Positions 59,618-64,000 of a stretch of 64,000 bases of DNA are shown piece after piece. The DNA lies in assembly GCA_020629285.1 (NCBI GenBank), contig JAHDDP010000009.1, forward strand, positions 1 to 64,000, in the 5' to 3' direction. Position numbers and translations under genes: made by a program. The DNA comes from Maribacter sp. GTDB lineage: Bacteria; Bacteroidota; Bacteroidia; Flavobacteriales; Flavobacteriaceae. The notes under the pieces are model-generated. The model ran no database searches and was not told the DNA's origin. It saw only the letters and a program-made list of their open reading frames with translations. Numbering within the stretch: position 1 is the stretch's first letter; every line of letters starts with the position of its first letter.

Positions 59618-60304
59618 ATGGATAGGCTCTTACAAGGGGTACAAATAAGAATCAATGAGAAACTCTTTCTAAAAGATCCAGAGTCTTCTAGTCTGGGTAG
59701 AAGAATAATCGAGTTTAGTATTCAATTGATAGATGAAATAGGCTTTGAAAGTTTTACTTTTAAAAAACTAGGAAAGGAAATTGGTTCTAACGAAAGTAGT
59801 ATATACCGTTATTTTGAAAATAAGCACAAACTTTTGCTGTATTTGACCTCATGGTATTGGGGTTGGATGGAGTATCAACTGGTTTTTGCTACAAACAGTA
59901 TTAGAAACCCACAAGAAAAACTAATGAAGGCGATCTTTATTATGACCAAAACAATAAAAGAAGATTCTGCTTTTTCGCATATCAATGAGGTTCTGTTGAA
60001 TAATATTGTAATCAATGAATATTCTAAGTCTTATTTGACAAAAGAAGTGGATGTTGAGAACAAAGAGGGCTATTATATTATATACAAAAGACTCGTAAGT
60101 AGACTTGGGGAAATGATTTCAGAAGTGGATCCCAACTATAAATATCCAACAAGTTTAGCAAGTACTATTCTTGAAAACGGTTTGCATCAGCATTTCTTAA
60201 AAGAACATTTTCCTTCACTAACAGATTGTAATAGTAAGGTTACACCAACTCAGTATTTAACACACTTAGTGTTTAATACCTTAAATAATACTATCGATGA
60301 ATAA
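59618..60304 (+). CDS. TetR/AcrR family transcriptional regulator
   Basis: The 228-residue protein has an N-terminal TetR helix-turn-helix (about 30-75: DEIGFESFTFKKLGKEIGSN, then SSIYRYFENKHKLLLYL) and an all-helical ligand domain with no recognised subtype. It begins the operon: its end overlaps the ABC gene by 8 bp. A palindrome at its promoter suggests it represses its own operon. Confidence 0.88.
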   Translation: MDRLLQGVQIRINEKLFLKDPESSSLGRRIIEFSIQLIDEIGFESFTFKKLGKEIGSNESSIYRYFENKHKLLLYLTSWYWGWMEYQLVFATNSIRNPQEKLMKAIFIMTKTIKEDSAFSHINEVLLNNIVINEYSKSYLTKEVDVENKEGYYIIYKRLVSRLGEMISEVDPNYKYPTSLASTILENGLHQHFLKEHFPSLTDCNSKVTPTQYLTHLVFNTLNNTIDE

Positions 60305-61979
60305 AAACATATTAACCGCCTGGCAACGTTTCTTAGGTCTTTTAAGATTAGATAAGAAAGACGTTTTTCAGATATTTTATTATGCCATTTTTGCCGGTGT
60401 GGTCAACCTTTCATTGCCTTTGGGTATACAGGCGATCATAAACTTAATGCAAGGTGCACAGATCAGTACATCATGGATCGTATTGGTTATTGGGGTAACC
60501 ATAGGTGTAGCGTTTGTAGGTATTTTACAATTAATGCAGATAAGGATTATAGAAAACGTTCAACAAAAGATTTTTACGCGGGCATCTTTCGAATTCGCCT
60601 ATAGATTTCCTAAGATTAAAATGAGCGAGCTTCATAATTATTATCCGCCAGAATTAGCGAATCGGTTTTTTGATACCTTGACCATTCAAAAATCATTATC
60701 AAAAGTATTGATAGACTTTCCTGCAGCATTATTACAGATTGTTTTTGGTTTGATATTACTTTCTTTTTATCATCCGTTTTTTATAGTCTACGGCCTACTA
60801 TTGCTGTTATTGATTTATGTAGTTTTTAAGTTTACCGCACAGCGTGGTTTAGATACTAGTTTAGACGAATCTAAGAGTAAATATAAGGTGGCGCACTGGT
60901 TACAAGAGATAGCGCGATCTATAGTTAGTTTTAAGTTATCGGGTAAAACTTCTCACGCTTTAGATAAGAACGACACTTTGGTGGTAGAATATTTGAATGC
61001 TAGAGAAAGTCATTTTAGGGTTCTTGTGTTACAATTTATCCAAATGATAGGTTTTAAGGTGTTGGTAACGGCCGGTCTTCTTCTAATAGGTGGTTTATTG
61101 GTATTGAACCAAGAAATGAATATTGGTCAATTTGTGGCTGCTGAAATTATTATTCTTTTGGTCATAAGTTCCGTAGAAAAACTAATATTGGGTCTTGAGA
61201 CTTTTTACGATCTATTGACTTCTCTAGAGAAAATGGGTCAGGTAGTAGATAAAGAACTGGAAATACAAGAAGGCGAAAAGCCATTTATGGAAAACCAAGC
61301 TTTTACTGTTGAATTAAATGATATTTCTTATCGTGTACCGCAACAAAAAAGACAGGTAATTTCAGATTTGAGCTTGACCATAACTCCGAATTGTACTATT
61401 CTTTTAAGGGGTAATAGCGGGTCTGGTAAAAATACACTATTACGTATTATCGCAGGTATTATTGAGCCAGACAGTGGTGGGGTGTATATCAACGGAGTCT
61501 CTTTAAGGGGTATGAACCTAAACTATTACCGTTCTCATCTAGGTCAGTCATTGCCAGAAGAATCTCCTTTTGAAGGCACTATACTGCACAACATTACTTT
61601 TGGAGATAAGGAAACTACAAATGAGCAAGTTTATTGGGCATTGGATAAAGTAGGACTTACGGAATTTGTAAAGAAACAGCCAGAAGGGTTAAATACCGTT
61701 CTATATCCCGAAGGAAAACAAATTCCATATACCATATCAAAAAAGATCGTACTGGCAAGAAGTATTGTTCGTAAACCAAAGTTATTGATATTAAAAGATC
61801 CTTTAGATCAGTTCAATAGTGAAGAGGCTGATAGAATTTTAAGCTTTTTAAGTGATTCATCTAATGGGTGGGCACTACTTGTGGTGAGTGAAAATGATAA
61901 ATGGATCAAAAAATGTTCTCGTATTATCACTATGGACCAAGGTCAGATTATTAACGAAATCTCAGGAAAAGATGCTTAA
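60297..61979 (+). CDS. ABC transporter membrane-ATPase fusion with degenerate ATPase motifs
   Basis: The 560-residue half-transporter has six membrane helices (about 25-310) and a nucleotide-binding domain (about 335-555), as in type-1 secretion ABC proteins but without a peptidase domain. All ATPase motifs are altered: Walker A GNSGSGKNT (372-380, Asn for the Ser/Thr after Lys), signature IPYTI in place of LSGGQ, Walker B LLILKDP (K500-D501 in place of Asp-Glu) and Glu where the switch His should be (VSEND). The Q-loop Gln417 remains. It should bind nucleotide poorly or not hydrolyse it. It overlaps the HlyD gene by 8 bp. Confidence 0.9.
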   Translation: MNKNILTAWQRFLGLLRLDKKDVFQIFYYAIFAGVVNLSLPLGIQAIINLMQGAQISTSWIVLVIGVTIGVAFVGILQLMQIRIIENVQQKIFTRASFEFAYRFPKIKMSELHNYYPPELANRFFDTLTIQKSLSKVLIDFPAALLQIVFGLILLSFYHPFFIVYGLLLLLLIYVVFKFTAQRGLDTSLDESKSKYKVAHWLQEIARSIVSFKLSGKTSHALDKNDTLVVEYLNARESHFRVLVLQFIQMIGFKVLVTAGLLLIGGLLVLNQEMNIGQFVAAEIIILLVISSVEKLILGLETFYDLLTSLEKMGQVVDKELEIQEGEKPFMENQAFTVELNDISYRVPQQKRQVISDLSLTITPNCTILLRGNSGSGKNTLLRIIAGIIEPDSGGVYINGVSLRGMNLNYYRSHLGQSLPEESPFEGTILHNITFGDKETTNEQVYWALDKVGLTEFVKKQPEGLNTVLYPEGKQIPYTISKKIVLARSIVRKPKLLILKDPLDQFNSEEADRILSFLSDSSNGWALLVVSENDKWIKKCSRIITMDQGQIINEISGKDA

Positions 61980-63324
61980 TATTTCTCATAAAAAATTGAA
62001 CGGAAATGTATCTATAGCGCGTTTTAAATCCGTTCAAAAAGTAAATCATAAAAGGCACTATAAACACTTTAATCGCTTTTTGTTGGCTTTCGCGATAGTT
62101 GGCGTTATCGTATTGTTTTTGCCTTGGACCCAGACAATTAATGCAAGAGGGTACTTAACAACACTAACACCAGGTCAAAGGCCACAAACCATTCAATCTC
62201 AAATACCGGGTAGAATTGAAGAGTGGTACGTACAAGAAGGTGATTATGTAAAAAAGGGAGATACAATACTCTTTATATCTGAAGTAAAGTCTGAGTATTT
62301 TGATCCAGATTTAGTAGAAAGAACTGGGCAGCAATTAAAATCAAAATCATCTTCTGTTACGTCTTATGAGGATAAGGTGAAATCTCTAGATAATCAGGTA
62401 GCGGCGTTGTTCAATGAAAGAAGATTAAAGTTAGAGCAGGCCAAGAATAAATTGATGCAAGCGAAATTAAAGGCACAGAGTGATAGTATTGATTTTGAAG
62501 CGGCAAAGACGAACATACAAATTGCAGAACGCCAATATGAACGTACGGCTCAGTTACAAAGCGAAGGCTTAAAGGCGGTAACAGATGTCGAAGAAAAGCG
62601 CTTGAAATTACAAGAAACACAGGCAAAATTAATTTCACAAGAGAACAAGTTATTGGCTGCCAAGAACGAGATTATCAATGCAGAAGTTGAAATCAATAGG
62701 GTGCAGGCTTCTTATACAGATAAGATTTCAAAAGCGCAAAGCGATAAGTTTACGGCGATGTCTAATCAATTCGATTCTGAGGCTCAGGTTAGTAAATTAG
62801 AGAATGATTATACCAATTATCAAATGCGAAACCAATTACGTTACGTAAGGGCACCGCAAAATGGTTATATCAATAAAGTGCTTACGGCAGGTATTGGTGA
62901 AACTTTTAAAGAAGGTACACCCTTGGTAGGCATTATGCCCGCTGACTATGATATGGCGGTAGAAACGTTCATAAATCCTATAGACTTGCCTCTGGTTCAT
63001 TTGGGTGAAACGGTCAGAATTCAATTTGATGGTTGGCCGGCAATCGTTTTCAGTGGTTGGCCAAATGCATCTTACGGTACATATGGCGGTAAGGTAGTGG
63101 CTATAGAAACTTTTATAAACCCTAATGGTAAATATAGAATACTCTTGTCGCCAGACAAAGAAGATCAACCATGGCCAGACGCTTTACGTGTAGGTACTGG
63201 AGCAAATACCATAGCCTTGTTAGAAGATGTACCGATCTGGTACGAACTTTGGCGTCAGCTAAACGGTTTCCCGCCTAATTATTATCAGCCGGAAGGCGCT
63301 CAAGATAAACCTGTAAAAAAATAA
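61972..63324 (+). CDS. HlyD-type periplasmic adaptor protein
   Basis: Started at 61972 (MLNISHKKLNG, overlapping the ABC stop by 8 bp) the protein has 450 residues; an upstream ATG at 61888 is rejected since it lies deep in the ABC gene. One N-terminal membrane helix (about 33-55) leads to a biotinyl-lipoyl-like half (IPGRIEEWYVQEGDYVKKGD), a long coiled-coil hairpin (about 115-280) and the second lipoyl half (RAPQNGYINKVL). It would join the ABC protein to the TolC channel; it resembles adaptors of type-1-secretion-like exporters. Confidence 0.9.
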   Translation: MLNISHKKLNGNVSIARFKSVQKVNHKRHYKHFNRFLLAFAIVGVIVLFLPWTQTINARGYLTTLTPGQRPQTIQSQIPGRIEEWYVQEGDYVKKGDTILFISEVKSEYFDPDLVERTGQQLKSKSSSVTSYEDKVKSLDNQVAALFNERRLKLEQAKNKLMQAKLKAQSDSIDFEAAKTNIQIAERQYERTAQLQSEGLKAVTDVEEKRLKLQETQAKLISQENKLLAAKNEIINAEVEINRVQASYTDKISKAQSDKFTAMSNQFDSEAQVSKLENDYTNYQMRNQLRYVRAPQNGYINKVLTAGIGETFKEGTPLVGIMPADYDMAVETFINPIDLPLVHLGETVRIQFDGWPAIVFSGWPNASYGTYGGKVVAIETFINPNGKYRILLSPDKEDQPWPDALRVGTGANTIALLEDVPIWYELWRQLNGFPPNYYQPEGAQDKPVKK

Positions 63325-63326
63325 GA

Positions 63327-64000
63327 ATGAACAGAATTATTATCTTTTTCTATCTGTCATTTGGGCTGTTTGCGAACGCTCAGACCGTAGATTCTGTGCA
63401 GCTTAATTTTAGGGAGTATTTAGGGTATGTAAAAAAATACCACCCTGTGGCCAAACAAGCAGAAATGGTAATTAGTGTTGGTCAGGCAAATTTAATGAAG
63501 GCGCGTGGTGGTTTTGACCCAAAGATAGCTGTAGATTATTCTACGAAAGAATTTAAAGGTTCTGAGTATTATGATTTAATGAACTCTACCTTTAAAATAC
63601 CAACTTGGTACGGTATTGAATTAAAGGGTGAATTTGAGCAGTATACCGGTGAATATGTAAATGCCGAAAAAAATGTGCCCGATGATGGTTTGTATAGTGC
63701 GGGTGTTGCACTTTCATTAGGTCGCGGCTCTTGGATAAACGAACGTATGGCTACCGTAAAGAAAGCCAAATTTTTTAGGGAGCAATCTAAGGCAGATAGA
63801 GATTTATTGGTGAATCAGATTTTGTTCGATGCTTCTTTAGCATATTTCAATTGGTTACAAGCATATAGAAATAGTCTGTTGTTCAATGATTTTTTGTTGA
63901 ATGCCAAAGTAAGGCTTAAAGGTGTTAACCGTAGCGCACAAGCAGGTGAAATTGCAGCCATAGATACGGTAGAAGCAAAGATTGCAGTACAGAATAGGGC
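63327..64000 (+). CDS. TolC family outer-membrane channel protein (partial, runs off the window)
   Basis: The first 224 residues are present, with no stop before the window edge. A signal peptide (1-19: MNRIIIFFYLSFGLFANAQ) precedes the outer-membrane efflux protein pattern: REYLGYVKKYHPVAKQAE helix, then strand LYSAGVALSLGRGSWIN, then the long helix ending NWLQAYRNSLLFNDFL. The ATG lies 2 bp after the HlyD stop, so it is the outer-membrane part of the same export system. The rest is beyond 64000. Confidence 0.88.
   Translation, partial: MNRIIIFFYLSFGLFANAQTVDSVQLNFREYLGYVKKYHPVAKQAEMVISVGQANLMKARGGFDPKIAVDYSTKEFKGSEYYDLMNSTFKIPTWYGIELKGEFEQYTGEYVNAEKNVPDDGLYSAGVALSLGRGSWINERMATVKKAKFFREQSKADRDLLVNQILFDASLAYFNWLQAYRNSLLFNDFLLNAKVRLKGVNRSAQAGEIAAIDTVEAKIAVQNR

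Follow-up and report, generated by a model that had tools for sequence, protein, structure and literature searches.

What does an ATP-binding cassette (ABC) exporter do once its ATPase has died, when the rest of its export apparatus is still encoded beside it? ABC transporters are defined by their ATPase. The question is raised by a gene on contig JAHDDP010000009.1 of Maribacter sp. (assembly GCA_020629285.1), of which we analysed positions 1 to 64,000; this stretch of 64,000 nucleotides is called the window below. The gene encodes a protein with a transmembrane domain (TMD) and a nucleotide-binding domain (NBD), and it stands between genes for a TetR-family regulator and a HlyD-type adaptor, with a TolC-type gene following. 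A preliminary description had called every ATPase motif of the protein degenerate. Sequence comparison places the protein in an old family of ABC exporters whose ATPase is dead; most of its members come from the window's class. ATP hydrolysis by the window chain is very unlikely, and the system very probably works without ATP hydrolysis by its own chain.

The motifs were aligned with those of P-glycoprotein and of three full ABC exporters encoded in the window's genome. The alignment upheld the signature as IPYTI, the Walker B change from Asp-Glu to Lys-Asp and the replacement of the switch His by Glu. Walker A is only partly degenerate, as Lys378 and the glycines are retained, and here the earlier wording went too far. 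The Gln of the Q-loop, which had not been named before, is also lost (Pro420). The features of the exporter gene, all on the + strand, are the following.

60297..61979, +: ATPase-degenerate ABC exporter protein, 560 amino acids (aa), TMD and NBD (Pfam ABC_membrane and ABC_tran)
60354..61256, +: TMD, approximately residues 20-320, the part retained by NBD-less relatives
61143..61145, +: Glu283 in transmembrane helix 6 (TM6; GQFVAAE), conserved also in TMD-only and fused forms
61410..61436, +: Walker A GNSGSGKNT, with the Lys retained and Asn in place of the next Ser/Thr
61539..61583, +: Q-loop region LGQSLPEESPFEGTI, with Pro in place of Gln (by alignment)
61722..61736, +: signature position, LSGGQ replaced by IPYTI (by alignment)
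61782..61802, +: Walker B, hhhhDEP replaced by LLILKDP, D to K and E to D (by alignment)
61890..61892, +: switch-His position, Glu532 (by alignment)

Comparison with homologous sequences showed that the loss is not local. Catalytic residues have been lost across a clade, the HlyD-TolC neighbours have been kept and the TMD is strongly constrained. Homologues were collected at E<=1e-60 in genomes of the window's family, where 177 of 299 sampled genomes gave a match, and at E<=1e-40 in genomes of its class (149 of 295). The 231 unique TMD-bearing proteins comprise an NBD-bearing clade of 165, an outgroup of 14, 43 TMD-only proteins, six TMD-HlyD fusions, two contig-cut proteins and one truncated open reading frame (ORF); besides the two contig-cut proteins and the truncated ORF (174 aa), 18 duplicates were left out. 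Not one of the 165 clade members has the signature pair (Ser and second Gly), the Walker B Asp-Glu and the switch His together. Single features are retained in a few (Asp-Glu in 4, His in 4, the signature pair in 5). The replacements vary by lineage: E, K, N and T are among those found for the Walker B Asp, and N, Q, S, E and K among those for the His. A complete Walker A (Lys or Arg followed by Ser/Thr) is present in 136 of the 165, and six members have Arg in place of the Lys. Five members (L145, L168, L171, L175 and L177) come from genomes outside the class.

The Asn that follows the Walker A Lys in the window protein was considered as a mark of its genus alone. Among 50 members of the window's family, Ser/Thr follows the Lys in 45, Asn in 3 (all of the window's genus) and Ala in 2. 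The idea was ruled out, as the Asn recurs in three distant proteins (L231, L239 and L244) among the six clade members that carry it.

The decay is old, because all 14 distant relatives in the outgroup retain Asp-Glu and six of them are near-canonical apart from the Q-loop, with the signature pair, Asp-Glu and His together. The genomes that encode these proteins (within L162-L180) share the window's phylum but not its class. They have Walker A in 14/14 and the His in 11/14, and the signature ends in Gln in 3/14. The Q-loop Gln is missing in all 14, though Walker B and mostly the His are retained, which suggests that the contact of the motor with the membrane part through the Q-loop may have been lost first. 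HlyD is present in the fetched DNA of 12 of the 14 loci, and not in that of L173 and L176. The near-canonical homologues all lie outside the decayed clade, in which the altered catalytic state is fixed throughout. The motif states across the clade rule out a recent local loss in the window only.

The NBD has gone entirely from some relatives. At 43 unique loci the ORF ends straight after the TMD (330-369 aa), and HlyD follows next in 43/43; the gap is between -47 and 118 bp, with -8 bp as the median. The family NBD profile found no match within 900 nt downstream of these 43 genes; 6 of 6 controls were detected. The carriers include Hymenobacter, Pedobacter, Mucilaginibacter, Spirosoma, Fibrisoma, Larkinella, Dyadobacter, Chitinophaga, Paraflavitalea and Sphingobacterium. 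At six other loci (L076-L081) a single ORF of 749-781 aa encodes the TMD, a short linker and HlyD (checked with Pfam for L077 and L078). Two further genomes, G544 and G463, carry fused forms of 744 and 751 aa, which gives eight fused genomes overall. A scan of named genomes was seeded with a TMD-only protein and its best 80 were kept, and its 41/80 is therefore not a frequency. The less biased tally is 5 TMD-only and 8 fused among 148 HlyD-bearing genomes of the class.

Trees were built by quick search from subsets of the 231 unique proteins. In the tree of the TMD (85 rows), the TMD-only proteins form one clade (support 100) and the fused proteins form another (99), both nested within the decayed forms. 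In the tree of TMD and HlyD together (75 rows, drawn with midpoint rooting, without the outgroup, L084 and L128), they fall in separate supported parts (100 and 100). The approximately unbiased (AU) test on TMD and HlyD rejected a joint origin of the two forms (p 0.005, a difference of 139 log units). The preliminary suggestion that the subunit does not use ATP hydrolysis is probably right, given a loss fixed across a wide clade and outright deletion of the NBD in two lineages.

The adaptor was also taken as the starting point, in a search at E<=1e-50 with no TMD required, and the results were compared by eye with those of the TMD search, with G544, G463, G541 and G474 checked individually. 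It found 149 HlyD places in 148 of 295 class genomes. The TMD is adjacent or fused in 147; one of the other two is at a contig break (G541), and in the other the two genes are on different contigs (G474). In G474 the ABC gene and HlyD (L263 and L264) have flanking DNA on both contigs. Counting G541, the TMD is adjacent, fused or across a contig break at 148 of the 149 places, and an adaptor without a TMD in its genome was not seen in this sample, while the motor was lost. Among 139 long related loci, TolC is present in 133 and a TetR-like gene in 55. No further regular neighbour, including a linked exported protein, was found in these 139 loci; a cargo gene may lie at a distance.

The protein had been described as selected for, which the low ratios of nonsynonymous to synonymous substitution rates (dN/dS) bear out. 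For the only window-genus pair that could be estimated, the TMD has a dN/dS of 0.019 and the NBD one of 0.039. Six TMD-only pairs gave 0.02-0.04 in five cases and 0.19 in one; such codon comparisons show purifying selection on the TMD-only genes, with values that are rough, as certain pairs have a gene in common and several have a high dS. It had also been said that decay is confined to catalytic positions. This was too strong, as the whole NBD changes about twice as fast as the TMD (NBD to TMD ratios of nonsynonymous differences, pN, of 1.7-2.5 in six pairs). Across the NBD-bearing, TMD-only and fused proteins, Glu86, Lys132, Ser192, Lys195, Gly265, Gly277, Ala281, Glu283 and Lys312 show little or no variation. 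The conservation of Glu283 is 1.00 (rounded) in the 165 decayed, 43 TMD-only and 6 fused proteins and 0.93 in the 14 of the outgroup.

We favour a HlyD-TolC conduit whose ABC-type membrane part works without hydrolysis, because hydrolysis by the protein's own chain is very unlikely and no close orphan NBD was found in the nine NBD-less genomes searched. The TMD would be the inner-membrane part of this conduit, often with a TetR gene alongside. An NBD that is still present may act as a structural or gating element and bind nucleotide by its P-loop. For the membrane part, the most likely action would be to alternate access or open a path, with transport running down the gradient of the substrate or coupled to that of an ion, in the manner of SbmA, and cargo passing on to HlyD-TolC. 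We give such gradient- or ion-driven transport about an even chance.

Several observations weigh against this picture. Motif columns cannot be placed with certainty in the proteins whose decay is greatest (for example L084-L088). The Walker A Lys is retained in 155 of the 165 clade members (94%), and nucleotide may therefore still matter. The cytoplasmic stretch between TM2 and TM3 (Glu119, Leu120, Asn122, Arg123, Phe124, Phe125, Asp126 and Lys132), which we take to lie near the NBD in ordinary exporters, is 93-100% conserved in TMD-only proteins; this would fit an NBD supplied in trans. The conserved membrane charges (an acid at 86, Glu283, Glu294 and Lys295) are mostly already present in the near-canonical outgroup, and so they did not arise as a novel means of energy coupling. 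A ladder of Glu residues acquired when the NBD was lost, comparable to that of SbmA/BacA, was considered and is unsupported: Glu86, Glu283 and Glu294 are conserved and mostly older than the loss. The selection estimates have dS near saturation (>1.3) in several pairs and exclude the fused forms, for which one pair was tried without an estimate. The TMD-only and fused groups were defined after the first tree had been seen. The AU test on the TMD alone did not reject a single joint loss of the NBD (p 0.455). Two independent losses, one leading to the TMD alone and one to the TMD fused to HlyD, are thus well but not fully supported by these phylogenies, since the test on TMD and HlyD rejects a joint origin and the test on the TMD alone does not.

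The alternative that survives best is that the membrane part only anchors and assembles HlyD-TolC, as a mere platform with no transport role. In PMC11026475, HlyD is reported to lose stability when HlyB is absent, and the complex is described as three HlyB dimers with six HlyD. The 1:1 ratio that the fused form fixes between TMD and HlyD fits this stoichiometry of three dimers and six HlyD. A platform is nevertheless the less likely of the two roles. The adaptor part of the fused forms still starts with a hydrophobic, putatively membrane-helix-like stretch of its own, and many TMD residues are near-invariant in all three forms, more than anchoring seems to need.

A second alternative is an ATPase acting in trans, with a separate NBD drawn to the TMD from those in the cell. 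Beside the conserved TM2-TM3 stretch, short helices in a predicted structure speak for it. The AlphaFold2 model of the TMD-only protein of Pedobacter jeongneungensis (predicted local distance difference test score, pLDDT, 84.4; predicted template-modelling score, pTM, 0.74) is that of a complete exporter TMD. Like the model of the window protein (pLDDT 83.8, pTM 0.80), whose Foldseek matches are ABC exporters including HlyB, it matches ABC exporters; its top matches are TmrB (Z 27.5, 320 residues, 2.6 Å) and the HlyB TMD of the HlyB/D complex (Z 26.8, 323 residues, 2.7 Å), two top rows that are tied within 1. Short helices are retained between TM2 and TM3 (H113-116) and between TM4 and TM5 (H213-217), presumably the coupling-helix positions of exporter anatomy. 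SbmA was not among the listed structure matches of this model. A trans-acting ATPase is nevertheless improbable. With the NBD of L116, a near relative, as the only query, six TMD-only and three fused genomes yielded no orphan NBD close to the family; a strongly diverged orphan could escape such a search. The best matches in these nine genomes are 26-31% identical, lie within full exporters of 583-668 aa and score at most 116 bits, against 517 for the native domain. The fused forms have partly relaxed the TM2-TM3 residues and shortened the loops, and the NBD-bearing forms still carry their own dead NBD.

Slightly less probable again is a heterodimer, in which the protein would be the degenerate half paired with an active ABC protein encoded elsewhere, as TM287 is with TM288. 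The window's genome does encode three other full ABC exporters; they are only 20-24% identical. TMD-only forms also retain the cytoplasmic stretch near the NBD site. A partner is unlikely because neither composite ATP site of a heterodimer could be intact: the window chain has lost Walker B as well as the signature. The preliminary description had proposed such a pairing and a search downstream of position 64,000. As it had reported, the window holds no second ABC gene, and the remainder of the 105,646-base contig holds none either (E<=1e-3, window protein as query). Elsewhere, an ABC gene lies nearby in two of the 43 long loci with a TMD-only label (a set that includes the truncated L082), in 0 of 5 fused loci and in 6 of 91 NBD-bearing loci, and there is no other regular neighbour. 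A conserved partner gene was thus found neither on the window's own contig nor in the 139 long loci, with one genus as the exception. In that genus a 610-aa exporter with canonical motifs ends approximately 140 bp upstream of the degenerate gene in L113 (G446:C9), where it is a candidate partner, and a second exporter of like size lies upstream in L083 (G475:C165); canonical motifs were checked in L113 only. With both composite sites broken, no regular partner nearby and no close orphan NBD in the nine NBD-less genomes, the proposed pairing is not supported.

The TMD-only operon at L181 (G906:C33, identical DNA to L211 of Fibrella rubiginis) is followed, approximately 1.3 kb past TolC, by an ABC-like gene of 282 aa. 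This locus is a duplicate and stands outside the tally of nearby ABC genes. One of the other full exporters of the window's genome, L002 (G000:C59:57796-59376), has Asp-Asp in place of the Walker B Asp-Glu and retains the signature and the His; it looks like an ordinary half-degenerate exporter.

It is more improbable still that the NBD remains an ATPase through unusual chemistry. The retained Walker A Lys and the high conservation of several other NBD positions speak for this, as does the predicted fold of the domain in the window model, with confidence mostly >90. The substitutions differ among lineages, as expected under relaxed constraint rather than under a common new mechanism, and the domain has been deleted in two lineages. 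A decaying pseudogene or an assembly artefact is hardly credible: remnants occur in single genomes (in the small genome G549, L268:5131-6523 on G549:C6, a 105-aa TMD fragment beside a separate 306-aa NBD-like ORF; in G387, a truncated ORF of 174 aa), but open frames and tight gene overlaps in many genera, the matches in the family genomes and the dN/dS of 0.02-0.04 in the window-genus pair and most TMD-only pairs amount to a constraint that refutes this reading for the family.

The other genes of the operon are as follows.

59618..60304, +: TetR-family regulator, the first gene of the operon (Pfam TetR_N, 34.7 bits)
61972..63324, +: HlyD-type periplasmic adaptor, 450 aa, ATG start (Pfam HlyD_3, 38.6 bits; TIGR01843, 99.5 bits)
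63327..64000, +: TolC-type outer membrane protein, 467 aa, running past the window end (Pfam OEP, 55 bits for the part in the window)

The ORFs are as first described, and the 8-bp overlaps of the TetR gene with the ABC gene and of the ABC gene with HlyD are real. The ABC protein exceeds the cut-offs of both Pfam models (PF00664, 43.1 bits; PF00005, 59.2 bits). The TIGR01843 score of HlyD is under the model cut-off of 208.65. The TolC ORF ends approximately 730 bases past the window (complete ORF, L011:5328-6731). It is followed at L011:6790-7401 by a gene for a predicted 203-aa, putatively thioredoxin-like protein that is not a neighbour in the other long loci. The window's genome is 83% complete, and no second HlyD of the window type was found in it at E<=1e-5.

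Many members of the family (L100, L106, L115, L119, L163 and others) have an extra N-terminal region of approximately 150-260 aa. This region gave no Pfam match in L106, L119, L125, L129, L162, L163 and L178. A TetR domain fused to the ABC protein was considered as the source of the long N-termini and was not seen in the scanned members.

The family offers living intermediates: the motor is near-intact in some, dead in others and absent in the rest, and HlyD and TolC remain alongside. It makes the conversion of a primary transporter into something else directly testable, in relatives of bacteria that can be grown in the laboratory. It also calls for caution with HlyD-TolC operons of Bacteroidota, some of which annotation would take for ATP-driven secretion systems although they may not be such systems. 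Both SbmA/BacA, which descends from ABC exporters and has no ATPase, and exporters in which one site is degenerate are already known. A literature search, with most subscription journals and bioRxiv preprints outside its reach, found no description of a class-wide, ATPase-dead HlyD-TolC exporter family with NBD deletion and TMD-HlyD fusion.

ABC protein, HlyD and TolC encoded together form a type 1 secretion gene set. The HlyB, LssB and PrtD systems have the same fold and the same three genes, and the HlyB TMD is among the closest structures. The window's family differs in the lost catalytic residues and in having no linked substrate gene in the 139 long loci. The best NCBIfam match of the window ABC protein is the LssB type I secretion permease/ATPase model TIGR03375, and its 185.8 bits do not reach the curated cut-off of 693.1.

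According to PMC7756269, exporters with one degenerate site are well described, and a D-loop mutant of TAP, deficient in ATPase, turned into a nucleotide-gated facilitator. TM287/288, TmrAB and TAP have likewise lost catalytic residues. Each of these dimers has one working site, whereas here neither site could be complete and there is no regular partner gene.

The precedent for an exporter-type TMD without ATPase comes from another lineage. The SbmA/BacA type of peptide transporter (SLiPT) is described in PMC13316013 as proton-driven, with a proposed loss of the NBD from a full ABC transporter, and SbmA is reported there to lack coupling helices. The TMD-only model here, unlike SbmA, keeps short helices near those positions. 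SbmA/BacA are importers with a relationship to the YddA line and have no HlyD-TolC. No SbmA-type family appeared in the Pfam hmmscan lists of the window and its relatives, and no direct sequence comparison was made. The window protein also differs in having a predicted folded NBD, and it is its distant TMD-only relatives that are without one. It is somewhat short of an even chance, on the sequences compared here, that the family is a second, independently evolved class of ABC-derived transporter without ATP, gradient- or ion-driven and working in tripartite HlyD-TolC export, in which the ATPase would have died and then been deleted twice, once to give a single-chain fusion of TMD and adaptor.

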